From Bradyrhizobium guangzhouense (GTDB lineage Bacteria > Pseudomonadota > Alphaproteobacteria > Rhizobiales > Xanthobacteraceae): a DNA stretch of 64,000 nucleotides. The notes under the pieces are model-generated. The model searched no databases, was not told the DNA's origin, and worked only from the letters and a program-made list of their open reading frames with translations. The stretch spans positions 2,666,001 to 2,730,000 of the forward strand of contig NZ_CP030053.1 of NCBI RefSeq assembly GCF_004114955.1, read 5' to 3'. The translations under genes and the position numbers were made by a program. Positions 38,845 to 64,000 of this stretch are shown here, in pieces. Position 1 is the stretch's first letter, and the number at the start of each line of letters is the position of its first letter.

Positions 38845-39495
38845 CTAAATTCGCGTCAGCCCGCAAGCCGCGGCGAGCCGCACCAGCTGCGCGTCCGTGC
38901 GCGCGCCGGTCTTGGTCTTGATCAGATAGTGGTAGTTCTGGACCGTCTTGACGCTGAGATTGAGCTGCGCTGCGATCTGCTCGGAGGTGGCGCCCCCCGC
39001 GAACTGGCGCAAAATCTCGATTTCGCGTTCGCCCAACTGATCCAGCGCTGATCCCGCCGACAGGCTGTCCTCGGCCAGCACACGTGCGATGTCGTCGCTC
39101 ATGGCGCGCTCGCCGCGCGCGACGCATCGGATCGCGTTGACGACCGCGGAGGGGGCGCTGCTCTTGGTGACGAAGCCGGACGCGCCGGCATTGAAGGCCG
39201 CTTTCACCAGCACGGCCTCGTTGTGCATGGTGAAGACGAGGATGCGCGCCCGCGGGTTGCGCGCGCGGATGTTGCGGATCGCCTCGAGCCCCGAGGCGCC
39301 CGGCATCGAGATGTCCATCACCACGACATCGGGGTCATGACTTTTGAAGGCGCCGTAGGCATCTGCGGCGTTGTCGGCTTCCGCCACGACATGGAGATCG
39401 CCCTGGCTTTCCAGCACGCGCCTGTAGCCCTGGCGGACGATCGGATGGTCGTCGACCAGGAGCACGGAGATGCCTGAAGTTGCGACCTCGCTCAT
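38845..39495 (-). CDS. NarL/FixJ-type response regulator
   Basis: A 216-residue regulator: receiver domain with DDHPIVRQGYRRVLES, phospho-acceptor Asp61 in DVVVMDISMPG and the Lys of FVTKSSAP, then a LuxR HTH (LGEREIEILRQFAGGATSEQ, IAAQLNLSVKTVQNYHYLIK). It lies 7 bases downstream of its sensor kinase gene, so the two form an operon. Its targets cannot be read here, though the divergent ExbB-like operon is one candidate. Confidence 0.9.
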   Translation of the reverse strand: MSEVATSGISVLLVDDHPIVRQGYRRVLESQGDLHVVAEADNAADAYGAFKSHDPDVVVMDISMPGASGLEAIRNIRARNPRARILVFTMHNEAVLVKAAFNAGASGFVTKSSAPSAVVNAIRCVARGERAMSDDIARVLAEDSLSAGSALDQLGEREIEILRQFAGGATSEQIAAQLNLSVKTVQNYHYLIKTKTGARTDAQLVRLAAACGLTRI

Positions 39496-39502
39496 GACAG
39501 CC

Positions 39503-40870
39503 TCACGCAGCAAGCGGAATCGTCGCGGCGACGCTGAGCCCGCGCCTCGCGGGCAGGATCGACAGCGAGCCGCCGGCCGCCGTGACGCGCTCGCGGATGC
39601 CGGTGAGGCCGAAGCCGGCGGAGCGCGCCACGCGCTCTGCATCGCCGCCGCCATCGTCCTCGACACGGATCAACAGCGCGCCATCCTCGCCGGCACAACG
39701 TTCGACGTGCAACGAGATCTCGCGCGCTGCACCGTGGCGCAGCGCATTGGTCAGGCATTCCTGGGCGACGCGATAGGCAGTGGTGGCGGCCGGGCCGCTG
39801 ATGTCGGTGAGGTCGCCTTTGAGATCGAGCTGGATCGTCGGCTGCGTCGCGCTCTGCGAGCGCCAGCTGTCGACGAGGTTGACGAGGCTCGCCTCGAGCC
39901 CGAGCTCCTCGGGCAGCGGATTGCGCAGCCGCTTCAGCGCATCGCGCAGCGAGGCCATCAGATGGTGCGTGGCCTGCGAGATCATGCGCGCATCCTGCGC
40001 GATGCCATTGTGGTCCTGCTGCGCGTTCGCGGTCTCGATCGTATTGGCGAAAGCGAGGATCGCCGAGAGATTTTGCCCGAACTCGTCATGCAGCTCGCGG
40101 GCGAGCGCGCGTCGTTCGTCGTCGCGGATTTCGATCAGGCGCCGTGTCAGCGCGGCGCGCTGTTCGGTCGCCTCTTTCAGCCGGCTGCCGAGCGCTTCGA
40201 CGGCGCGGCCGATCATCGCAAGCTCCATGGAGCGGAAGCGCGGCAGCTTTGTGCGATACTGGCCGCGCGCCATGCGTTGCAGGGCGGTCACGATGCTGCG
40301 TGCCGGCGCCAGCGTGTGCGCGATCGCAAGCGAAGCGAGCAGCGCGATCGCCGCCGCCATCAAAAGCGCAACGTCGATCACGTTCAGGATATAGTCCCAG
40401 GCGAGCGAGATTGAGGCGGCCTCATCCGGCGTCGCAACCACCGTTCCGGCGGCGGCGGCGCGTGGGCTGACGGGGCGCACCACCTCGGCGTGGCTGCCGA
40501 GGAAGGTTGGAACGATGGCGGCGAACCAGCGCGGCGGGGTCCGGCCGATCCCTTGGCTCTGGCCGCAGAGCGGCCTCTCGAATGCGGTGGCCGGCTGGAA
40601 CTCGACGCAGACACCGGGCGCAATCAGTTTCACCGTCTCCAGCGTGCGCCATTCGGGAACCGGCATGAGATGCTCCCGCATCCTGCTGCTGCGCAGCAAC
40701 AGCTCGTGCCAGTACAAGCCCTGGAGCGCCTGTGCGACCCGTTGTGCAGAGGCCGCCGTCGCGCGGTCGACGCTGCGATAGGCATCGAACGTGGCCCACA
40801 TGGTTGCCGCGCCCAGGCACAGCGCAACGATGAGAAGCAGACGGGCGACAAGCTGAAGCACGAGGCGCAT
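39503..40870 (-). CDS. Membrane sensor histidine kinase, HisKA_3 (NarX/DegS-like)
   Basis: A 455-residue kinase: TM helix 3-25, periplasmic sensor of about 130 residues, second TM 158-185, HAMP-like linker (APARSIVTALQRMARGQYRT), then HisKA_3 with phospho-His261 in ALARELHDEFGQNLSAILAF and an HATPase with GFGLTGIRERVTAAGG. The periplasmic part (WHELLLRSSRMREHLMPVPE) is not a known sensor by eye. Partner of the regulator downstream; faces the ExbB-like operon across a 199-base gap. Confidence 0.9.
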   Translation of the reverse strand: MRLVLQLVARLLLIVALCLGAATMWATFDAYRSVDRATAASAQRVAQALQGLYWHELLLRSSRMREHLMPVPEWRTLETVKLIAPGVCVEFQPATAFERPLCGQSQGIGRTPPRWFAAIVPTFLGSHAEVVRPVSPRAAAAGTVVATPDEAASISLAWDYILNVIDVALLMAAAIALLASLAIAHTLAPARSIVTALQRMARGQYRTKLPRFRSMELAMIGRAVEALGSRLKEATEQRAALTRRLIEIRDDERRALARELHDEFGQNLSAILAFANTIETANAQQDHNGIAQDARMISQATHHLMASLRDALKRLRNPLPEELGLEASLVNLVDSWRSQSATQPTIQLDLKGDLTDISGPAATTAYRVAQECLTNALRHGAAREISLHVERCAGEDGALLIRVEDDGGGDAERVARSAGFGLTGIRERVTAAGGSLSILPARRGLSVAATIPLAA

Positions 40871-41069: not shown

Positions 41070-41855
41070 ATGAGTTCGGTGACGATTGGACCGATCGCGG
41101 GCTCGAATGCCGACCCATCCGAGCGCAGCGCGCTGTTGTTCTGGATGATCTTCACGGGGCTGTCGATCTTCGCAATGGTGCTGCTGTGGCGGTTTGGCCT
41201 GATCCATCTGATGCTGACATCGGACCGGACCTACATTTCGAGCGTGATCGCGGTGCTCTATCTCGTCACCTGCGGCCACTGCTTCCTGCGCACGCGGGCG
41301 ATTGCCCGTGAGGGTGCGGCCGCGCGGCGCTGCCGCGCGGTGCTGGCGGCGCCCGATGGCAGCAAGGCGCTCGATGCGCGCGCGACGACGTTGCCGCGCG
41401 GACTGGTGCGCGATCACATCGAAAGCCTCGTGACGAAAGCCGCAGCGCAGGATTACCGCCCGGTCGACCAGACGCTGCTGCTGCGGACGCTCGCCGACCG
41501 CTTGCGCGGCTCCAACGGGTTCGGCGCCTTCGTCTCCGACACGCTGATGAAGCTCGGCCTGCTCGGCACCATCATCGGCTTCATTATCATGCTGGCGCCG
41601 ATCGCGGGGCTGGATGCCGCCGACAAGGTCGCCATGCGCTCCTCGATGGGGCTGATGAGCGACGGCATGGCGGTCGCGATGTACACGACGCTCGCCGGTC
41701 TCGTCGGCTCCATCCTGGTCCGCATCCAGTACTACATGCTCGATGCCGCGACCCAGCGCGTGTTCTCCGATGCCGTGGTGCTGACCGAGACCTATGTGAC
41801 GCCGGTTCTCGAGCGCCAAGGCGCTGGAACTAAAGGCGCCGGAACGCCGTCATGA
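41070..41855 (+). CDS. MotA/TolQ/ExbB-like proton-channel protein
   Basis: A 261-residue inner-membrane protein: TM1 at 21-47, TM2 at 55-73, a cytoplasmic segment, then paired TM3 (LMKLGLLGTIIGFIIMLAPI, 159-178) and TM4 (SDGMAVAMYTTLAGLVGSI, 197-215). The G-L-L-G-T-I-I-G and M-x-x-A-M-x-T-T-L-x-G-L patterns are the MotA/TolQ/ExbB channel signature. These proteins form H+ or Na+ driven stators that move a partner across the periplasm. It is the first gene of a five-gene set; the next gene starts inside its stop (ATGA), and takes the place of an ExbD/TolR/MotB partner. No ordinary ExbD or TonB gene is nearby. Confidence 0.8.
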   Translation: MSSVTIGPIAGSNADPSERSALLFWMIFTGLSIFAMVLLWRFGLIHLMLTSDRTYISSVIAVLYLVTCGHCFLRTRAIAREGAAARRCRAVLAAPDGSKALDARATTLPRGLVRDHIESLVTKAAAQDYRPVDQTLLLRTLADRLRGSNGFGAFVSDTLMKLGLLGTIIGFIIMLAPIAGLDAADKVAMRSSMGLMSDGMAVAMYTTLAGLVGSILVRIQYYMLDAATQRVFSDAVVLTETYVTPVLERQGAGTKGAGTPS

Positions 41856-42538
41856 TGGATGATTTCGGCCTCTATCCGCGCGAGGAGCCGTTCGATCCGC
41901 TGGGCGTGATGCTGTTCAAGGCGCTCCAGGTGGTCGCCTTCCTGTTCTTCCTCGCGCTGCTCGCGGTCTCGCCCGATGCCAAGGAGGGCAAGATCGACTC
42001 CAAGGCCGAGTTCATGATCACACTAGACTGGCCGGACAATCATCCCGACGATCTCGATCTGTTCGTGCAGGATCCCGCCGGCAACATCGCCTGGTATCGC
42101 CACCGCGAGGCCGGCTTCCTCACGCTCGATCGTGACGACCGCGGCGGGGCCAATGACTTCATCGTGGTCAACGGCAAGAAGATCGCTTCGCCCATCCGCG
42201 AGGAGATCGTCACGCTGCGGGGCATCCTGCCCGGCGAATACACCGTCAACGTCTCGCATTTCGTCGCCACGACCGGCGAGCCCGTGACGGCCAATGTGAA
42301 GGTGCAGAAGCTCAACCCGACCGCGCAGGTGATCTTCGACAACAAGTTCACGCTCGACCACACCGGTGACGAGAAGACCGCGGTGCGGTTCCGGCTCGAT
42401 GCCGAAGGCAAGGTCATCGATGTCAACCAGCGGCCGAAATCGCTGATGGAGACCTTTCGCAGCACCTGGCGCAATGGGGCCGATCTCGACCCGAGGACCG
42501 GTGTGAGCAGGAACGCGACGAGGATCCGCCGTGATTAA
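41852..42538 (+). CDS. One-TM protein with periplasmic DUF2135/YfaP-like beta domain
   Basis: A 228-residue protein with a short cytoplasmic tail (MMDDFGLYPREEPFDPLG), one TM helix at about 20-40 and a periplasmic domain from ~50. The latter contains FMITLDWPDNHPDDLDLFVQ then DPAGNIAWYR, the D-x-D-L-x-V-x-x-P-x-G pattern of DUF2135 (YfaP) beta-sandwich proteins, and GILPGEYTVNVSHFVATTGE. Topology (short N-tail, single TM, periplasmic part) is the same as ExbD/TolR, so it may be the partner of the channel protein. Overlaps both neighbours (4 and 8 bases). Confidence 0.7.
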   Translation: MMDDFGLYPREEPFDPLGVMLFKALQVVAFLFFLALLAVSPDAKEGKIDSKAEFMITLDWPDNHPDDLDLFVQDPAGNIAWYRHREAGFLTLDRDDRGGANDFIVVNGKKIASPIREEIVTLRGILPGEYTVNVSHFVATTGEPVTANVKVQKLNPTAQVIFDNKFTLDHTGDEKTAVRFRLDAEGKVIDVNQRPKSLMETFRSTWRNGADLDPRTGVSRNATRIRRD

Positions 42539-43136
42539 TCTGCAGACGGTCATCCTCTCGCTGTCGGTCGCCTATGCGGTGATCGGAGCGCTCCTGCTGG
42601 TCGTGCTGGTCTACGCGCGGCTGCACTGGTCGCTGAAGGCGGTCGCGGTGGTCGTAACCAGCGCCTTCTACGTCGTGAGCTTCACGGAAATGCGCGGGCT
42701 GCTCGGCTGGGCCAGCAGCGAGCGGCTGCCGACCGCCTTCAAGCTGCTCAAGGCGCGGATCGTCGAGCCGCATTCGCTGGCGGGCGATCCCGGCTCGATC
42801 TATCTGTGGGTCGAGGAACTCGATGAAGATCATCGTCCGAGCGGCATTCCGCGGGCTTTCCGCGTCCCCTACAACGACACCCTGGCCGACAAGACCCATG
42901 CGGCGGAGAACGAGATTGCCGCGGGCCATCCGCAAGGCGGGCGTGCGGCGGACTTTGGCGGCGGCGAGGGCAGCCTGATCGACATGGTCCGGGAATATGT
43001 GACGCCCAAGGCCGTCCTCGAGACCAGCGGCGGCGATTCCTCGACCGGGGAGTTCATTGCCCCGCCATCAGGCGCGCAAGGAGCTGTCTTCACGCCGCTG
43101 CCGCCACCCCGGATGCCGCCCAAGGACGAGCAATAA
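42531..43136 (+). CDS. Two-TM membrane protein of unknown function
   Basis: A 201-residue protein, GTG start overlapping the previous gene by 8 bases. Two TM helices at about 6-29 and 35-53, then a ~90-residue folded part (SIYLWVEELDEDHRPSGIPR, AFRVPYNDTLADKTHAAENE) and a Gly/Pro-rich tail ending in PLPPPRMPPKDEQ. The proline-rich end might span or touch another protein. No family recognised. Third gene of the ExbB-like operon. Confidence 0.7.
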   Translation: MINLQTVILSLSVAYAVIGALLLVVLVYARLHWSLKAVAVVVTSAFYVVSFTEMRGLLGWASSERLPTAFKLLKARIVEPHSLAGDPGSIYLWVEELDEDHRPSGIPRAFRVPYNDTLADKTHAAENEIAAGHPQGGRAADFGGGEGSLIDMVREYVTPKAVLETSGGDSSTGEFIAPPSGAQGAVFTPLPPPRMPPKDEQ

Positions 43137-43266
43137 GGCCGAGCAATAGGCTCCCCACCATTGCGGCGGCGTGGCGCTGGTCAACTGGCCTGCGCTGGCG
43201 CATCTTGTTGACCTCCCTCAAATTGGCTTTATCGGCTTCCAATAAGATGATGAGGGTGGAGGGTGT

Positions 43267-44007
43267 GTGCTTCTCGCTGTCTTCTCGGATATCCACGGCA
43301 ACCGGCAGGCGTTCGAGGCGTGCCTGAAGGTGGCCCGCGCCAGGGCTGCGGAGCGGTTCATCCTGCTCGGTGATTTCGTCGGTTATGGTGCCGACCCGGA
43401 ATGGGTCGTTGACACCGCCATGGATCTGGTCGCCCATGGCGCCGTCGCCGTGCGCGGCAACCATGACGAAGCCGTCAACACCACCACCGAAAGCATGAAC
43501 AACGAGGCTCAGATCGCGATCGAGTGGACCCGCGGGCGGCTCGACGCGGCGCAGCGGCGGTTCCTGGCTGAACTGCCGATGCTGGTGGAGGACAGCGATC
43601 GCCTGTTCGTGCATTCGGAAGCCTCGAGCCCCAAGCGCTGGCATTATGTCCGCTCGACCACGGATGCCGCCAAGAGCTTGATCGCAACGCCGGCCCACGT
43701 CACATTCTGCGGCCATATCCATCGGCCCGCGCTCTATTCGATGTCGGTGACGGCGAAGATGACGAGTTTCGTGCCCAAGACCGATGTGTCGGTGCAACTG
43801 CTGCGCGGCCGGCAATGGCTCGTGGTGCTCGGCTCGGTCGGCCAGCCGCGCGATGGCGACCCAGCCGCATCTTTCGTGCTGTTCGACACTGTCTCGTGCC
43901 AGGTCACCTATTGCCGCGTGCCCTACGACATCGCGAGCGCGGCAAACAAGATCCGCGAGAACGGCCTGCCGCCCTGGCTCGCCGACCGGCTGTCGCAGGG
44001 GCGCTAG
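43267..44007 (+). CDS. Calcineurin-like metallophosphoesterase
   Basis: A 246-residue phosphoesterase with GTG start. All metal-binding motifs are present: FSDIHGNRQAF (D-x-H), LLGDFVGYGADPEWV (G-D), VRGNHDEAVN (G-N-H-D/E), VHSEASS and FCGHIHRPA (G-H-x-H). Close in pattern to small PPP-like/YfcE-type enzymes; it may be a protein or nucleotide phosphatase. Only six bases separate it from the kinase gene, which makes a kinase/phosphatase pair attractive. A 130-base gap before it contains inverted GGTCAAC/GTTGACC and a weak -10-like TAAGAT, so a separate promoter is possible. Confidence 0.88.
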   Translation: MLLAVFSDIHGNRQAFEACLKVARARAAERFILLGDFVGYGADPEWVVDTAMDLVAHGAVAVRGNHDEAVNTTTESMNNEAQIAIEWTRGRLDAAQRRFLAELPMLVEDSDRLFVHSEASSPKRWHYVRSTTDAAKSLIATPAHVTFCGHIHRPALYSMSVTAKMTSFVPKTDVSVQLLRGRQWLVVLGSVGQPRDGDPAASFVLFDTVSCQVTYCRVPYDIASAANKIRENGLPPWLADRLSQGR

Positions 44008-44013
44008 AGGCCG

Positions 44014-45447
44014 ATGCCCAAATCCCTGATCAAGTCAGGCGCTGTCATCGACGGCTACACGATCGGCGAGTGCGTCCATGCCGGCGGCATGGCGACGCTG
44101 TGGACGGTCACCCATCCCGGTATCGATGGCCCGCTGCTGATGAAGGTCCCGCGGGCCTCCGAAGGCGAGGACCCCGCCGCGATCGTCTCGTTCGAGATGG
44201 AGATGATGATCCTGCCGCGACTCGCCGGCCCGCACGTGCCGCACTGTTATGGCACCGGCGATTTTGCGCACCAGGCCTACGCCGTGATCGAGCGCATTCC
44301 CGGCACCACGCTCTACAAGCGGCTGCCTGATCTGCCGCTGCCTTACGAGGAGGCGCGGCTGCTGGTTGCCAGGATCGCGGCTGCGCTCGCCGATCTGCAC
44401 CGCCAGAACGTGATCCATCACGACATCAAGCCGAGCAGCGTCATGTTCCGGGATAGCGGCGAGGCCGTGCTGATCGATTACGGCCTGTCGCACCACGATC
44501 ACCTGCCCGACCTGCTGCAGGCGGAGTTCCGTCTGCCTTACGGCACCGCGCCCTACATGGCGCCGGAGCGGCTGTTGGGCGTGCGCGACGATCCGCGCAG
44601 CGACCTGTTCTCGCTCGGCGTGCTGCTGTACTTCTTCACGACCGGCGAACGTCCGTTCGGCGAGGGCGAGACGCTGCGCGCGATGCGACGGAGGCTGTGG
44701 CGCGATCCGCATCCGCCGCGAAGCTTGCGCGCCGACTATCCGCCCTGGCTCCAGGAAGTGGTGCTGCGGTGTCTCGAGATCGAGCCGGTCCGGCGCTATC
44801 CGACTGCCACGCAGCTGGCCTTCGATCTCGCTCATCCTGATCAGGTCAGGCTGACCGCGCGTTCGGAGCGGATGAAGCGCGATCCCCTGAGCGTGGCCTG
44901 GCGGCGCCGTTTCAACCAGGATGCCGCGCAGCCGCGGGCGAAGCCGGATGTCGCCGAGCAGATCGCCTCGAGCCCGATCCTCGCGGTCGCGCTCGATACG
45001 GTGGAAGGTGAGCCGGAGCTGAACGAGGCGCTGCGCGTCACCACGGAGCGCATTCTCGCCACGCTGCCGTCAGCGCGGCTCGCTTGCATCAATGTGTTGA
45101 AGCTCAACCGCATCGCCATCGACAAGACGCTGGACGAGCAGGGCTCCAACAAGCATATCGATCGCCTGGTCGCGCTCCGGCATTGGGCGACGCCCCTCAA
45201 GCTCGACGAGAGCCGGCTGTCGGTTCACGTGCTGGAGGCGGTCGATCCGGCCACGGCGCTGCTGGAATTCGCCGAGGTCAACCAGGTCGACCACGTCATC
45301 ATCGGCGCCCGGCAGAGCTCATTCAGGCGCACATTGCTTGGCAGCGTCTCGGCCAAGGTGGCGGCGGAGGCGACCTGCACCGTCACCGTGGTGCGGCCAC
45401 CGCGGATGGCTGTTGCCAAACCGGACGCTGGCGTGGTGTGGGGCTAG
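44014..45447 (+). CDS. Ser/Thr protein kinase fused to a UspA domain
   Basis: A 477-residue soluble protein. Residues 15-270 are a Hanks-type kinase: Gly-rich loop HAGGMATLW, ATP-anchoring Lys44 (LLMKVPR), catalytic loop HHDIKPSSVM (H-R-D is H-H-D, Asp137; the usual Asn is Ser141), metal-binding D155-Y-G, and YMAPERL. Residues 318-462 are a UspA domain ending in VDHVIIGARQSSFRRTLLGS then VSAKVAAEATCTVTVVRP, the UspA nucleotide-binding loop. No TM segment. The Ser in place of the Asn after the catalytic loop might weaken Mg binding. Last gene of the five; likely phosphorylates a partner of the membrane complex or responds to stress via UspA. Confidence 0.88.
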   Translation: MPKSLIKSGAVIDGYTIGECVHAGGMATLWTVTHPGIDGPLLMKVPRASEGEDPAAIVSFEMEMMILPRLAGPHVPHCYGTGDFAHQAYAVIERIPGTTLYKRLPDLPLPYEEARLLVARIAAALADLHRQNVIHHDIKPSSVMFRDSGEAVLIDYGLSHHDHLPDLLQAEFRLPYGTAPYMAPERLLGVRDDPRSDLFSLGVLLYFFTTGERPFGEGETLRAMRRRLWRDPHPPRSLRADYPPWLQEVVLRCLEIEPVRRYPTATQLAFDLAHPDQVRLTARSERMKRDPLSVAWRRRFNQDAAQPRAKPDVAEQIASSPILAVALDTVEGEPELNEALRVTTERILATLPSARLACINVLKLNRIAIDKTLDEQGSNKHIDRLVALRHWATPLKLDESRLSVHVLEAVDPATALLEFAEVNQVDHVIIGARQSSFRRTLLGSVSAKVAAEATCTVTVVRPPRMAVAKPDAGVVWG

Positions 45448-46830: not shown

Positions 46831-47081
46831 GGCGCTGTTTCCCGGGACGGCAAGGGCGAATGGCCTCGCCTAACATGGGCCTCACAGCCGGGCAATGCAG
46901 GGGCGGTGAGCTTCCTGTGGGCGGAAATTTCTGCCGCCGGCGGCATGAATTGCCGATGGTCCCGCTCCCCGCAAAGGGCGGACGGGCCGGATTTCATTGA
47001 GCTTTTTCGCTGGCACGACGCTTGCTGACCTCAATGGCCGGAACATTGGCCGCGGCATGCCGCATGGGTTGGAGTTGTGCA

Positions 47082-47885
47082 ATGTTGTTCGCGCTTGGTG
47101 CCGTCTCGACTGCGCTTGATGCCATTCAATCGCTGACGAGCTCGAAATCGTCCTCGACGCAGCAGACGGGATCGTCAGGAGGCGCGACCAATCCGTTTGC
47201 GATCGACAGCAGCAACAGCATCAGCAGTTCAACCAGCAGTGCAGCTCCGTCGGTGAATGCGGGCTACTATCCGCAGATCTCGCCGGACACGATGAATGCG
47301 TTGTTCGCAGCACAAAGCCAGTCGAATTCATCGACCGGTTCCACATCGTCGAGCGCGACCTCGACGAGCCGGGATGACGCGCTGAAGGATCTGTTCTCGA
47401 AGCTCGACGCCAATGGCGATGGCCAGATCAGCAAGTCCGAGTTCGAGAACGCGCTCGGCGCCGGCGGCACCAATCTGGCGCAGGCCGACGACGTGTTCTC
47501 CAAGCTCGATACCAACTCCGACGGCAGCGTCAGCCTCGATGAGATGTCCAAGGCGCTGAAGGGCGCCGGCCATCACGGCGGGCACCACCACGCCCACGCG
47601 GCGAGCGGCTCGGGCGATGCGTCGGGCAGCGGTTCGGATTCCTCGTCATCATCGTCGAGCGGCGGGTCGACCTCGACCACCACGACCGGCGCCGACGGCT
47701 CGACCACCACCACCGTCACCTATGCCGACGGTTTCAAGATGACGACGACGGTGCCGGGCGCTTCCAGCTCGCAAGGCGGCGCCGGCGGCGGCAATTCGCC
47801 TTATGACTGGTTCGGCCAGATGATGCAGCGCCAGGCCCAGACCGCAGCGGGCTCCGCAGCCTCATCGATGTCGATGAGCGTGTAA
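47082..47885 (+). CDS. EF-hand domain protein, Ser/Thr-rich
   Basis: A 267-residue protein. After a Ser-rich N-terminus there are two EF-hands, FSKLDANGDGQISKSEFENA and FSKLDTNSDGSVSLDEMSKA, each with the D-x-N/D-x-D-G loop for calcium, followed by a His-rich patch (HHGGHHHAH) and a Ser/Thr/Gly-rich tail. GGAG seven bases before 47082 sets the start; other in-frame ATGs lie upstream (47022, 47034). No signal peptide of normal type is seen. Likely calcium-binding, secreted or surface role uncertain. Confidence 0.8.
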   Translation: MLFALGAVSTALDAIQSLTSSKSSSTQQTGSSGGATNPFAIDSSNSISSSTSSAAPSVNAGYYPQISPDTMNALFAAQSQSNSSTGSTSSSATSTSRDDALKDLFSKLDANGDGQISKSEFENALGAGGTNLAQADDVFSKLDTNSDGSVSLDEMSKALKGAGHHGGHHHAHAASGSGDASGSGSDSSSSSSSGGSTSTTTTGADGSTTTTVTYADGFKMTTTVPGASSSQGGAGGGNSPYDWFGQMMQRQAQTAAGSAASSMSMSV

Positions 47886-61439: not shown

Positions 61440-61620
61440 GTTGCGCAAGTCCGGGGGAGAGACCTAATCACCATGATCAGGCTCTGCCAATCCCTGACGA
61501 TCGGCACAAGACTTTTTGCAGGTGCGAATATGCATCCCACGTGACCGCGGGCTACCCTTTTCTTTGCGGCCTTCGTGCGTTACTTGAGCATCCCACCTTT
61601 TGCGATCCCGGAGGCACCCC

Positions 61621-62067
61621 ATGGCCATGACAATGAACGGCGAAGTCCAGCTTGCGGCGCCGCGCGAGGCCGTATGGGAGAAGCTCAACGACCCCGCTGT
61701 GCTGAAGGCCTGCATCCCCGGCTGCGAGGAGCTGGAGAAGACCGAGGACGGCGGCTTTCGCGCCACCGCGAAAATGAAGGTCGGTCCGGTCTCGGCGCGC
61801 TTCAAGGGCAAGGTGATGCTCTCGGATCTCGACCCGCCGAACGGCTACAAGATCTCGGGCGAAGGCGAGGGCGGGGTGGCCGGCTTCGCCAAGGGCGGCG
61901 CCGCGGTGAGGCTCGCCGAGAAGGATGGCGGCACGCTGCTTTCCTATGACGTCGAGGCGCAGATCGGCGGCAAGTTGGCGCAGCTCGGGCAGCGCCTGAT
62001 CAACGGCACCGCCAAGAAGCTGGCGGACGAATTTTTCGCGAATTTCGCCAAGGCGGTACAGGGCTGA
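61621..62067 (+). CDS. coxG: CoxG-family SRPBCC protein
   Basis: A 148-residue SRPBCC-fold protein starting MAMTMNGEVQLAAPREAVWE with GGAGG before it; ACIPGCEELEKTEDGGFRAT, KMKVGPVSARFKGKVMLSD and YDVEAQIGGKLAQLGQRLIN are the CoxG blocks. CoxG is a membrane-associated accessory factor of the aerobic CO dehydrogenase. First of the cox cluster, but a promoter and palindrome lie between it and coxS. Confidence 0.88.
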   Translation: MAMTMNGEVQLAAPREAVWEKLNDPAVLKACIPGCEELEKTEDGGFRATAKMKVGPVSARFKGKVMLSDLDPPNGYKISGEGEGGVAGFAKGGAAVRLAEKDGGTLLSYDVEAQIGGKLAQLGQRLINGTAKKLADEFFANFAKAVQG

Positions 62068-62101
62068 CGGCTCTTGCTTTTCGTCATGGCGCCTTGCGCC
62101 T

Positions 62102-62139
62102 GGGGCAATGTTGCCCCCGGCCATAATGGCCCATATGAT
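62102..62139 (+). promoter_or_regulatory. Promoter of coxS with overlapping palindrome
   Basis: TTGCCC (62111-62116), 17 bases, TATGAT (62134-62139) is a good sigma-70-type promoter. The palindrome GGGGCAA-TG-TTGCCCC (62102-62117) covers the -35 box, so a repressor or activator bound there would control it. The predicted start is near 62146, 60 bases before coxS. Confidence 0.65.
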
Positions 62140-62206
62140 GGGTTGGAATAATTATAAGAAAGAACCGCTTCGACGGGACCCGTCGGGGCGCTGACAGAGA
62201 GTGCTT

Positions 62207-62692
62207 ATGGCAAAAATCTCCCTCATCGTGAACGGCAATCCTGTTACCGGCAATGTCGACCCGCGCACGCTTCTGGTGCAGTTCCTGCGCGAGAATCTGC
62301 GCCTGACGGGCACCCATGTCGGCTGCGACACCTCGCAGTGCGGCGCCTGCGTCGTGCATCTCGACGGCAAGGCCGTGAAGTCCTGCACCACGCTGGCCGT
62401 GATGGCCGATGGCCACGAGGTCAAGACCATCGAAGGACTGGCTGCCGACGGCGCGCCGCTGCATCCGATGCAGGAAGCCTTCCGCGAGCACCACGGCCTG
62501 CAATGCGGCTTCTGCACGCCGGGCATGATCATGACCGCGATCGATATCGTGCACCGCAAGGGCCACGAGCTCGACGACCATACGATCCGGGAAGAGCTGG
62601 AAGGCAATCTCTGCCGCTGCACCGGCTACCAGAACATCGTCGCCTCGATCGCCGCCGGCGCGAAGGCGATGGCGAAATCCGATCTCGCGTAA
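62207..62692 (+). CDS. coxS: (2Fe-2S) small subunit of CODH-like molybdenum hydroxylase
   Basis: A 161-residue iron-sulfur subunit with two [2Fe-2S] centres: plant-ferredoxin type [20 protein letters not shown] (with the later SCTTLA Cys) and C-terminal [16 protein letters not shown] and [14 protein letters not shown]. Passes electrons from the molybdenum subunit to FAD. Belongs to the xanthine oxidase family; which substrate (CO, nicotine-like or others) depends on the large subunit, not found here. Confidence 0.92.
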
Positions 62693-62722
62693 CCGCGCGC
62701 CCTCCGCGATCAGGACACCCTC

Positions 62723-63529
62723 ATGTACGAATTCAAATACCACCGCCCCGGGACCGTCCGGCAGGCCGCCAATCTCCTGGTGAAGAACGAAGACGCCAAG
62801 GTGATCGCCGGCGGTCACACGCTGATTCCCGTCATGAAGCAGCGGCTTGCAAGCCCGCCGCATCTGGTCGACCTCTCCCATATCGAGGGGCTGAACGCGA
62901 TCGAGATGAAGGGCCGTTCGCTGGTGATCGGCGCCACCGCCAGGCATGCCGAGGTCGCGACCTCCGCCATCGTCGGTGAAGCCATTCCCGCGCTCGCCAA
63001 TCTCGCCAGCCAGATCGGTGATCCCGCGGTGCGCCACAAGGGCACGATCGGCGGCTCGCTCGCCAACAACGATCCGACCGCCGACTATCCGGCCGCGGTT
63101 CTCGCGCTCGGCGCCACCATCGTCACCAACAAGCGCCGCCTCAAGGCCGAGGAGTTTTTCCAGGGCCTGTTCTCGACCGCGCTGGAAGCCGACGAGATCA
63201 TCACCAAGGTGATGTTCCCGCTGCCGAAGAAGGCCGCCTATATCAAGTTCCGCAACCAGGCCTCGCGTTACGCGCTGGTCGGCGTGTTCGTGGCGCGGCG
63301 TCCGTCGGACGTGCGCGTCGCCGTCACCGGTGCCGGTTCGGACGGTGTGTTCCGCGTCGAGGCTTATGAGGAAGCGCTGAAGAAGCGGTTCTCGTCCAAG
63401 GTGCTCGAAGGCATCGATGTGCCGGCGGAAGGGCTGAACAGCGACATCCACGGCAGCGCCGAATACCGCGCGCATCTGATCGGCGTGCTGGCACGGCGCG
63501 CCGTCGACGCCGCCAATGCCAAGGAGTGA
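62723..63529 (+). CDS. coxM: FAD-binding medium subunit of CODH-like molybdenum hydroxylase
   Basis: A 268-residue FAD subunit: [20 protein letters not shown], the FAD-binding [19 protein letters not shown], and [20 protein letters not shown] then [12 protein letters not shown] (FAD pyrophosphate motif). Starts only 30 bases after coxS, so the large coxL gene (expected about 2.4 kb) does not lie between S and M as in the common S-L-M order. Confidence 0.92.
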
Positions 63530-63589
63530 GTGATTCTCACGCCTCGGCCAACCTTGTCCCGGTGAGGGCGTAGCGAGACTGGCTATTTC

Positions 63590-64000
63590 ATGACTTCAGC
63601 GACCCTGCCGGCATCGGTCGATGCGATGCTCGAACTCTTGACCTCGCGCGGCTATCTGGCCGAGCGGTCGCTGGCGACGGTGACATATCTCTCGCTGCGG
63701 ATGGGCCGGCCACTGTTCCTGGAAGGCGAGGCCGGCGTCGGCAAGACCGAGATTGCAAAGGTTCTCTCGGCCGCGCTGGGGCGGAAGCTGATCCGTCTGC
63801 AGTGCTACGAGGGCCTCGACGTCTCCTCCGCGGTCTATGAGTGGAACAGCGCCGCGCAGATGATCGCGATCCGGATGGCGGAAGCCGCCGGCGACACCGA
63901 TCGCGATCAGTTGTCGAGCGACATCTTTGCCGACCGCTACATGATCAAGCGGCCGCTGCTGCAGGCACTGGAGCCCGATGTCGCAGGTCCGCCGGTGCTG
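63590..64000 (+). CDS. coxD: MoxR-type AAA+ ATPase CoxD (partial, runs off the window)
   Basis: The first 137 residues are seen, starting MTSATLPASVDAMLELLTSR; Walker A is in LFLEGEAGVGKTEIAKVL, and the following LIRLQCYEGLDVSSAVYEWN is typical of the MoxR group. CoxD helps mature the CuSMo-type site of CO dehydrogenase. The 3' end lies beyond 64000. Confidence 0.88.
   Translation, partial: MTSATLPASVDAMLELLTSRGYLAERSLATVTYLSLRMGRPLFLEGEAGVGKTEIAKVLSAALGRKLIRLQCYEGLDVSSAVYEWNSAAQMIAIRMAEAAGDTDRDQLSSDIFADRYMIKRPLLQALEPDVAGPPVL

Follow-up and report, generated by a model that had tools for sequence, protein, structure and literature searches.

The window, a 64,000-nucleotide stretch of the Bradyrhizobium guangzhouense genome, carries a run of three overlapping membrane protein genes followed by a phosphoesterase gene and a kinase gene, with a likely two-component regulatory pair encoded divergently upstream (Table 1). 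A sequence-only reading of the window had described the five co-directional genes as a single envelope system. All five open reading frames lie on the forward strand where it had placed them, the three membrane genes overlap by 4 and 8 bases as it had noted, and the phosphoesterase and kinase genes are 6 bases apart, again in agreement, with 130 bases separating the TM2 gene from the phosphoesterase gene. Chance open reading frames are ruled out because the five frames are conserved across many genomes. The phosphoesterase and kinase identities were likewise borne out by Pfam (Metallophos_2, 7.5e-21; Pkinase, 7.6e-27, and Usp, 8.1e-14).

Table 1 Features of the locus, with positions counted from the first base of the window
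Feature	Position	Strand	Length	Basis and remarks
LuxR-type response regulator, probably paired with the histidine kinase	38845-39501	-		Pfam
HisKA_3 histidine kinase, divergent from the trio	39503-40870	-		Pfam
ExbBL, MotA/TolQ/ExbB-type channel subunit	41070-41855	+	261 aa	
DUFL, one-TM subunit	41852-42538	+	228 aa	Occupies the ExbD/MotB place
DUFL TM-helix motif	41894-41920	+		Alignment counts; separate origins
TM2, two-TM subunit	42531-43136	+	201 aa	GTG start; alignments, hydropathy, low-confidence model
Metallophos_2 calcineurin-like phosphoesterase	43267-44007	+	246 aa	GTG start; Pfam; own module with the kinase
Ser/Thr protein kinase fused to Usp domain	44014-45447	+	477 aa	Pfam; separate module

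The channel subunit is of the ExbB/MotA type, as had been proposed: ExbBL matches Pfam MotA_ExbB (PF01618) at 1e-8 with 35.4 bits against a cut-off of 22.9, and its relatives match the same family. Hydropathy analysis predicts four transmembrane (TM) segments (residues 21-39, 55-73, 162-180, and 199-217) and a large, presumably cytoplasmic loop at 74-161. MotA has four TM segments and ExbB three, and the count in ExbBL fits MotA rather than ExbB. Thr207 is found in all 70 grouped channel sequences of our alignment and Thr167 in 66 of them, the exceptions being Lys in L183-L185 and Asn in L187; both residues are present in the window's protein.

Hydropathy also agrees with the single TM segment assigned to DUFL and the two assigned to TM2 in the sequence-only reading; neither protein has a significant Pfam match, and no ExbD or OmpA domain appeared among the Pfam matches of DUFL up to an E value of 1. 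The description of the DUFL head as DUF2135-like held at the profile level, where a 57-sequence DUFL profile matched E. coli YfaP with a probability of 74 (E = 2.8e-5) over 73 columns that include the pattern D(L/V)DL.V..P.G..WY, but not at the level of the window's own protein, which has no Pfam DUF2135 match. A smaller profile of 31 sequences reached a probability of 17.5 against YfaP, and DUF2135 (PF09906) matched none of the 31 DUFL members; the best relative tested scored 17.2 bits against a cut-off of 22, and one relative matched DUF2135 at 0.0054, below the cut-off. We describe the head as DUF2135/YfaP-like and predicted to be periplasmic. Its predicted structure appears to resemble TerD; a sequence profile match to TerD was not found for DUFL, and Foldseek returned nothing at an E value of 0.001 or better. 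In TM2, alignments confirmed the proline-rich tail that had been pointed out, a conserved C-terminal stretch ending in ..PLP.P.(L/M)P.K, and the C-terminal domain is predicted to be periplasmic; the structure model is of low confidence (mean pLDDT 66.6).

The TM helix of DUFL carries a charge motif that varies between branches. A stator-type Asp near the start of the helix, at position 19, is present in 40 of the 57 aligned DUFL sequences, and proteins of the same genome that we read as TolR-, ExbD-, and MotB-like also have an Asp near the start of their TM helix. The window's protein instead has Asp15 (41894-41896), which sits just before the helix, Val19 (41906-41908), and Lys23 (41918-41920), leaving it with no acidic residue inside the helix. 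Ion conduction is not assured for this protein because the stator Asp is missing. The Asp15/Val19/Lys23 combination defines the window's branch (15/57 sequences), and Ala19/Lys23 occurs in 3 of the 19 second-class DUFL sequences, where it has a separate origin; loss of Asp19 with gain of Lys23 has arisen at least twice. The substitutions are Asp to Val or Ala at position 19 plus Asn to Lys at position 23, one helical turn beyond position 19. Asp15 is retained in all 18 sequences with Lys23, as would be the case were an acidic residue still required, and the pore residues Thr167 and Thr207 are retained in all 17 channel sequences paired with Lys23.

The locus consists of two modules, the membrane trio (41070-43136) and the phosphoesterase-kinase pair (43267-45447). 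The pair is itself a stable unit, its two genes being adjacent in all 30 kinase loci retrieved from the 33 matches, yet it lies beside the trio in only four of these, all from the window's genus. Neighborhood analysis, the check that the sequence-only reading had put forward, thus shows that the pair is not conserved next to the membrane genes, which counts against its assignment of the kinase and phosphoesterase to the membrane machine. In a set of 80 trio neighborhoods, which leaves out three genomes with linked modules (G024, G064, and G086) and 80 loci from close Bradyrhizobium, only the window's own neighborhood had the pair close to the trio; the other 79 did not. Both modules are present and unlinked in five genomes (G005, G043, G046, G050, and G080) and lie on different short contigs in G004; within the window's genus, three of seven genomes inspected (G105, G689, and G757) have the trio with no adjoining pair.

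The trio, by contrast with the five-gene set, is a conserved unit with stator-type anatomy, and the claim that the three membrane genes belong together held: the trio was complete in 74 of the 80 neighborhoods. It occurs in two bacterial classes and in genomes of 1.0 to 9.1 Mb. A similar histidine kinase gene was found in 10 of the 80 neighborhoods and a similar response regulator gene in 11. A quinoprotein marker lay within about 8 kb of the trio in 23 neighborhoods (group B, 12/20; group A, 4/15; group C, 2/20; unassigned, 1/5; second-class batch, 4/20) and was absent from the other 57. In L272 there is a ten-gene co-directional run with gaps of up to 72 bases that begins with a PQQ dehydrogenase gene (TIGR03075, 9.7e-240) and continues with genes for a PedF cytochrome, a solute-binding protein, a SoxYZ-like carrier (TIGR04557), a zinc metallohydrolase (TIGR04558), and a CXXCW protein (TIGR03865), followed by the trio and a DUF3108-like gene. 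Near the trio in L190, from the window's family, are genes for a PQQ dehydrogenase, a TIGR03874 cytochrome, Gfa, and a class III alcohol dehydrogenase; L197, from the window's genus, has TIGR04559 and TIGR04557, and L142 has matches to TIGR03863, 03864, and 03866 that are all below their own cut-offs. A different context recurs in the second class, with an L,D-transpeptidase, DUF302, and a VWA/FHA protein in L267 and YkuD also in L273.

We scored trio presence by its second gene (DUFL) and compared it with the presence of PQQ alcohol dehydrogenases using Fisher tests, all P values of which ignore kinship. In the window's class, the dehydrogenase was found in 27 of 31 genomes with strong DUFL matches against 73 of 354 others (P = 1e-13), and in 37/58 against 63/327 when weak matches were added (P = 3e-11); the weak-match genomes alone showed no significant co-occurrence (10/27, P = 0.13). 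Within the window's family, all 18 genomes with DUFL had the dehydrogenase, compared with 34 of 101 without (P = 5e-8), and the association persisted when counted by genus (9/9 vs 14/38, P = 6e-4), whereas the kinase, used as a control in the same family, gave 17/31 vs 35/88 (P = 0.11). The second class repeated the pattern (21/30 vs 6/50, P = 1.6e-7). No PQQ dehydrogenase reached the cut-off in 9 of the 30 DUFL genomes of the second class or in 4 of the 31 strong-match genomes of the first; DUFL is kept in genomes of 1.0-1.4 Mb with no such enzyme at the cut-off (G248, G924, and G1032). The trio lay within 10 kb of a PQQ dehydrogenase in 13 of the 59 scored genomes, where 1.0 was expected; in the genome that contains the window, 535 kb separate the trio from the closest PQQ dehydrogenase listed. 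In both co-occurrence and shared gene runs the trio behaves as a quinoprotein-associated accessory, though not in the window's own neighborhood or in the weak-match group.

Since the trio is kept together in two classes and is found mostly in genomes with PQQ enzymes, it is a good candidate for an ion-driven envelope machine for those enzymes. We propose, with a probability of about 0.5, that it forms a MotA/ExbB-type complex at the service of PQQ alcohol dehydrogenases in the periplasm, and that the kinase and phosphoesterase are separate from it. In such a complex, a ring of channel subunits would enclose the TM helices of DUFL, whose TerD/DUF2135-like head in the periplasm would be turned or pulled by the flow of ions, and TM2 would transmit this movement to a client through its outside domain and proline-rich tail. 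The work done might be quinoprotein maturation or the loading of metal or cofactor, or might serve an associated SoxYZ-like relay, and the histidine kinase and response regulator encoded divergently upstream may control the operon. In the window's branch, which keeps Asp15 but has Val at position 19 and a newly acquired Lys23, the charge pair may have been rewired, or the channel may be gated or idle. A more far-reaching version, which we offer tentatively and think rather doubtful, is that the trio represents an undescribed three-subunit ion-driven stator family dedicated to quinoproteins, in which a TerD-like head, perhaps one that binds calcium or lanthanide, supplies PQQ alcohol dehydrogenases with metal or cofactor or drives their SoxYZ-like relay, and in which the ion-carrying Asp was twice exchanged for a hydrophobic residue as a Lys arose one helical turn on, with the machine not lost.

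The trio could instead be a general envelope stator acting on the cell wall or outer membrane, its link to PQQ enzymes reflecting lifestyle or kinship. The recurrent second-class context with the YkuD L,D-transpeptidase, DUF302, and the VWA/FHA protein would fit this explanation, as would the 57 neighborhoods with no quinoprotein marker, the lack of association in weak-match genomes, and the retention of DUFL in small genomes with no PQQ dehydrogenase at the cut-off. It accords poorly with an association that holds inside a single family, though not for the kinase control there, that is repeated in a second class, and that extends to a trio inside the PQQ dehydrogenase run of L272; on balance we regard a general stator as possible but somewhat unlikely. 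For the window's branch, the complex might be a non-conducting scaffold, a sensor or anchor with its pore shut. The Asp15/Val19/Lys23 branch and the separately derived Ala19/Lys23 pair are what such a loss of conduction might leave behind, but the retention of Asp15 and of both pore threonines wherever Lys23 occurs argues against it, and we consider it improbable.

The original proposal, that the kinase-phosphoesterase pair controls the membrane complex through phosphorylation, draws on the five-gene synteny seen in 76 of 80 loci from close Bradyrhizobium (the other four are cut by contig ends) and on co-occurrence of DUFL with the kinase in the family (10/18 vs 21/101, P = 0.004, kinship ignored), which outside the window's genus stands at 6/13 (P = 0.05). 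Set against these are the restriction of linkage among the 30 kinase loci to one genus, the unlinked and pairless genomes described above, and the 130-base spacing between the modules. The data do not support a five-gene machine under phosphorylation control, which we judge very improbable.

Ion-driven stators power flagella, the TonB and Tol systems, and one phage defense. If the proposed role in PQQ enzyme function is true, the trio would be a further stator family, set apart by its head domain and by the presence of a third subunit, PQQ dehydrogenases would be a new client, and two protein families with no Pfam or NCBIfam match over the cut-off would gain a first testable function. To our knowledge, the route by which metal and PQQ reach periplasmic dehydrogenases and the role of the "quinoprotein relay" genes are unsettled, and a putative motor encoded in the same run offers a concrete lead on both. 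The separately arisen Asp-to-Val/Ala plus Asn-to-Lys substitutions amount to a natural experiment in stator conduction; if the twofold Asp exchange with Lys gain is true, it would show how the charge can be relocated while the machine is preserved.

The sequence-only reading had known of no described system with this gene set, and our searches of the open-licence literature brought up none; those for ExbB with DUF2135, DUF2135 alone, and the Bradyrhizobium kinase combination yielded no paper; this does not establish absence from print overall. In several genomes the trio lies near over-cut-off TIGR03075, 03865, 03874, 04557, 04558, and 04559 genes of the ped/exa, lut, and "quinoprotein relay" clusters. 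The main text of the lut cluster paper contains neither "ExbB" nor "MotA" (PMC7391723), and "ExbB" is absent from the main text of the ped cluster paper (PMC12997753). The Zorya defense system was considered and rejected: ExbBL matches ZorA weakly in the shared pore region (NCBIfam, 0.0028, 16.6 bits against a cut-off of 500; PADLOC, 1.6e-6) and does not reach the length of any listed ZorA model, which range from 383 to 1063 positions, and DUFL and TM2 have no PADLOC match. DUFL resembles YfaP in its profile match, differing in that it scores under the Pfam DUF2135 cut-off and that the annotated neighbors of yfaP, unlike those of the DUFL gene, hold no channel gene. With MotA-MotB and ExbB-ExbD/TolQ-TolR, the trio shares a channel subunit over the MotA_ExbB cut-off, a partner with one TM segment and an outside domain, and, in most relatives, an Asp near the start of the partner's TM helix. 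Unlike those pairs, it has a DUF2135/TerD-like head in place of an ExbD, TolR, or MotB domain, adds a third, two-TM subunit, and, in the window's branch, dispenses with Asp19.

We propose that the first three genes of the locus (the trio) encode an ion-driven complex of the cell envelope, with PQQ alcohol dehydrogenases as its clients, a reading to which we assign about even odds (probability ~0.5). The stator part of this reading comes from the anatomy of the proteins, and the quinoprotein part from the company that the genes keep. On re-examination, the five open reading frames, their overlaps and their spacing matched the description in the sequence-only reading. The head of gene 2 is predicted to be periplasmic, and the C-terminal domain of gene 3 probably lies outside because the loop between its two hydrophobic segments is basic. 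The step served could be metal or cofactor loading, relay, or transport.

Features of the window and of fetched loci (L-numbers), each in its own coordinates
Feature	Sequence	Coordinates	Strand	Remarks
Gene 1	window	41070..41855	+	MotA/TolQ/ExbB-type channel protein; four hydrophobic segments, basic loop between segments 2 and 3
Gene 2	window	41852..42538	+	one hydrophobic segment and a head
Gene 3	window	42531..43136	+	two hydrophobic segments, C-terminal domain, conserved Pro-rich tail
Gene 4	window	43267..44007	+	calcineurin-like phosphoesterase
Gene 5	window	44014..45447	+	Ser/Thr kinase fused to Usp
HisKA_3 histidine kinase and LuxR-type regulator	window			divergent from gene 1
Protein with two EF-hand-like loops (read by eye)	window	47022-47885		1.6 kb past the kinase; similar genes keep near an epimerase gene in L064 and L198
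Apparent CO dehydrogenase cluster	window	61600-64000		window's end; CoxG-, CoxS-, CoxM- and MoxR-like genes, named by eye
DUF3108-like gene	L275	8837-9556		lipoprotein-like
DUF3108-like gene	L272	8985-9689		lipoprotein-like
Three tandem PQQ dehydrogenase genes	L193	10020-15928		adjoin the trio
117-162 aa protein	L190	12287-12640		near the trio in four family genomes (L190, L192, L193, L197); start looks secreted; no Pfam or NCBIfam match in L190
Transpeptidase context, second class	L267	6084-10601		domains named here
Transpeptidase context, second class	L273	5635-9253		L,D-transpeptidase domain (YkuD) named here

The trio was followed through 80 neighbourhoods of up to 16.5 kb, all picked for holding gene 2. 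Besides the window, 40 were drawn from the class sample, 19 from the samples of the family and the phylum, and 20 from a second class, that of genome G516; three of the batch of 19 (L183-L185) come from the family of G516 and so belong to the second class too. Subunit profiles, each made from 52 to 57 sequences of this set, found all three members in 74 of the 80. The trio was incomplete in L140, L151, L157, L186, L200 and L201, with L151 and L157 cut by contig ends. Of 385 class genomes, 58 carry gene 2, 31 of them with a strong match (E 1e-60 or better) and 27 with a weaker one; the corresponding counts were 13 of 299 in the phylum and 30 of 274 in the second class. Three genomes (G902, G922 and G1013) hold gene 2 twice, one of the G902 copies lying near PQQ genes, and a division of labour between copies is possible.

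Gene 2 served as the trio's marker, and TIGR03075 matches at E 1e-100 or better were called as PQQ alcohol dehydrogenases. On this basis, the dehydrogenase occurred in 27/31 strong-match genomes of the class against 73/354 others (p 1e-13; these and the following p values are from Fisher tests ignoring kinship), and in 37/58 against 63/327 when weak matches were included (p 3e-11); weak matches by themselves gave 10/27 against 90/358 (p 0.13). Within the family it was present in all 18 gene-2 genomes against 34/101 (p 5e-8), or in 9/9 against 14/38 when counted by genus (p 6e-4), and the kinase, taken as a control, gave 17/31 against 35/88 (p 0.11). The association recurred in the second class (21/30 against 6/50 in a comparison set lacking gene 2, picked at about every fifth listed genome; p 1.6e-7). 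A listed PQQ dehydrogenase lay within 10 kb of gene 2 in 13 of 59 scored genomes, where genome sizes predict 1.0. Quinoprotein-system markers were found in 23 of the 80 neighbourhoods. Grouped by gene 2 residues 15, 19 and 23, these were 12/20 in group B (Asn23), 4/15 in group A (Asp/Val/Lys, the window's group), 2/20 in group C (Asp19 with Leu or Val 23), 1/5 unassigned and 4/20 in the second-class batch. The nearest listed PQQ gene in the window's own 8.1-Mb genome is 535 kb off, so the assignment here rests on its kin.

Locus L272 holds a co-directional run, with gaps of at most 72 bases, that encodes, in order, a PQQ methanol/ethanol dehydrogenase (9.7e-240), a PedF-type cytochrome, a solute-binding protein, a SoxYZ-like carrier, zinc metallohydrolase 1, a CXXCW rhodanese protein, the channel, the one-TM and two-TM proteins and a DUF3108-like protein. 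In L190, from the window's family, genes for a PQQ dehydrogenase, a methanol-related cytochrome (TIGR03874), Gfa and a class III alcohol dehydrogenase lie at a distance of 2-3 kb from the trio, and in L197, from its genus, zinc metallohydrolase 2 and a SoxYZ-like carrier are near the trio, with a PQQ dehydrogenase 20 kb away. Locus L142 has matches to TIGR03863, 03864 and 03866, each below cut-off; the TIGR03863 match is truncated where the locus ends. In L190, L272 and L278 the dehydrogenases carry Asp at the D-Y/F-D position, which we take to be a lanthanide mark, and are presumably xoxF-like, whereas those of L153 and L154 carry Thr there; judged from these residues, the trio may therefore serve dehydrogenases of both metal types. 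A DUF3108-like gene occurs in 14/80 neighbourhoods, often directly after the two-TM gene, and is the fourth run member in a number of genomes; none lies near the trio in the window.

The sequence-only reading had suggested that the kinase and phosphoesterase belong with the membrane genes to one phosphorylation-controlled machine, a claim that distribution and linkage do not support: the pair and the trio are two modules. Both were present in 76 of the 80 sequence-closest loci, the other four being cut by contig ends, in a set that is nearly all Bradyrhizobium and thus over-represents close relatives. Among 119 genomes drawn evenly from the family, gene 2 occurred in 18, the kinase (E 1e-60) in 31 and both in 10; the two were neighbours in 4 of these 10, all from the window's genus. 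In five (G005, G043, G046, G050 and G080) they lie megabases apart or on separate contigs with kilobases of flank, and G004, which holds both on two short contigs, was counted neither way. In three of seven genomes examined in the window's genus (G105, G689 and G757) the trio is present but the pair does not adjoin it, and among the 80 neighbourhoods, a set that omits the family draw's three other linked genomes, the window alone has the pair near the trio. Of 33 kinase matches, 30 loci were fetched, and in every one the phosphoesterase adjoins the kinase. Counting against two modules, the kinase accompanies gene 2 in the family more often than chance predicts (10/18 against 21/101, p 0.004), and outside the window's genus it is in 6/13 gene-2 genomes (p 0.05), both values ignoring kinship.

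In several second-class genomes the gene order is L,D-transpeptidase, DUF302 protein, trio and VWA/FHA protein, and genes for a histidine kinase and an NtrC-type regulator are close by. This order recurs, with variations, in L262, L263, L267, L268, L271 and L273, and the domains were identified in L267, the transpeptidase domain also in L273; the two-TM gene is duplicated in tandem in L271 and L273. No steady neighbour was recognised among the neighbourhoods of group C, the most distant branch, and a PQQ dehydrogenase is present in its loci L156 and L157. Given these contexts, the trio could act as a general machine, its main client being quinoprotein metabolism.

The transmembrane helix of gene 2 varies in its charged residues. 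Asp19 is found in 40 of 57 rows and Asp15/Val19/Lys23 in 15, the window among them; the remaining two are Glu15/Ala19/Asn23 and a row gapped at all three positions. Second-class rows have Asp15/Asp19/Asn23 (16/19) or Asp15/Ala19/Lys23 (3/19). Lys23 is thus accompanied by Asp15 but never by Asp19 (18 of 18 rows), and the channel's Thr167 and Thr207 are retained in 17/17 Lys23 channel rows. TolR-, ExbD- and MotB-like proteins encoded in the same genome have the usual Asp. In a head-only tree (55 rows, transmembrane columns excluded), Lys23 rows from the two classes did not group as a single clade (AU test, p 0.0004, for a group named after seeing the first tree), and the N-terminal part of gene 2 may have been exchanged between lineages. 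Another natural change of pore charge is seen in L183, L184 and L185, where the channel has Lys for the pore Thr at 167 and its partner retains Asp19.

We found no described system with this gene set in the parts of the open-licence literature available to us. In one report, lanthanum represses a MotA/TolQ/ExbB protein together with calcium methanol dehydrogenase genes (PMC6277846), which provides a lead to a possible connection with the trio.
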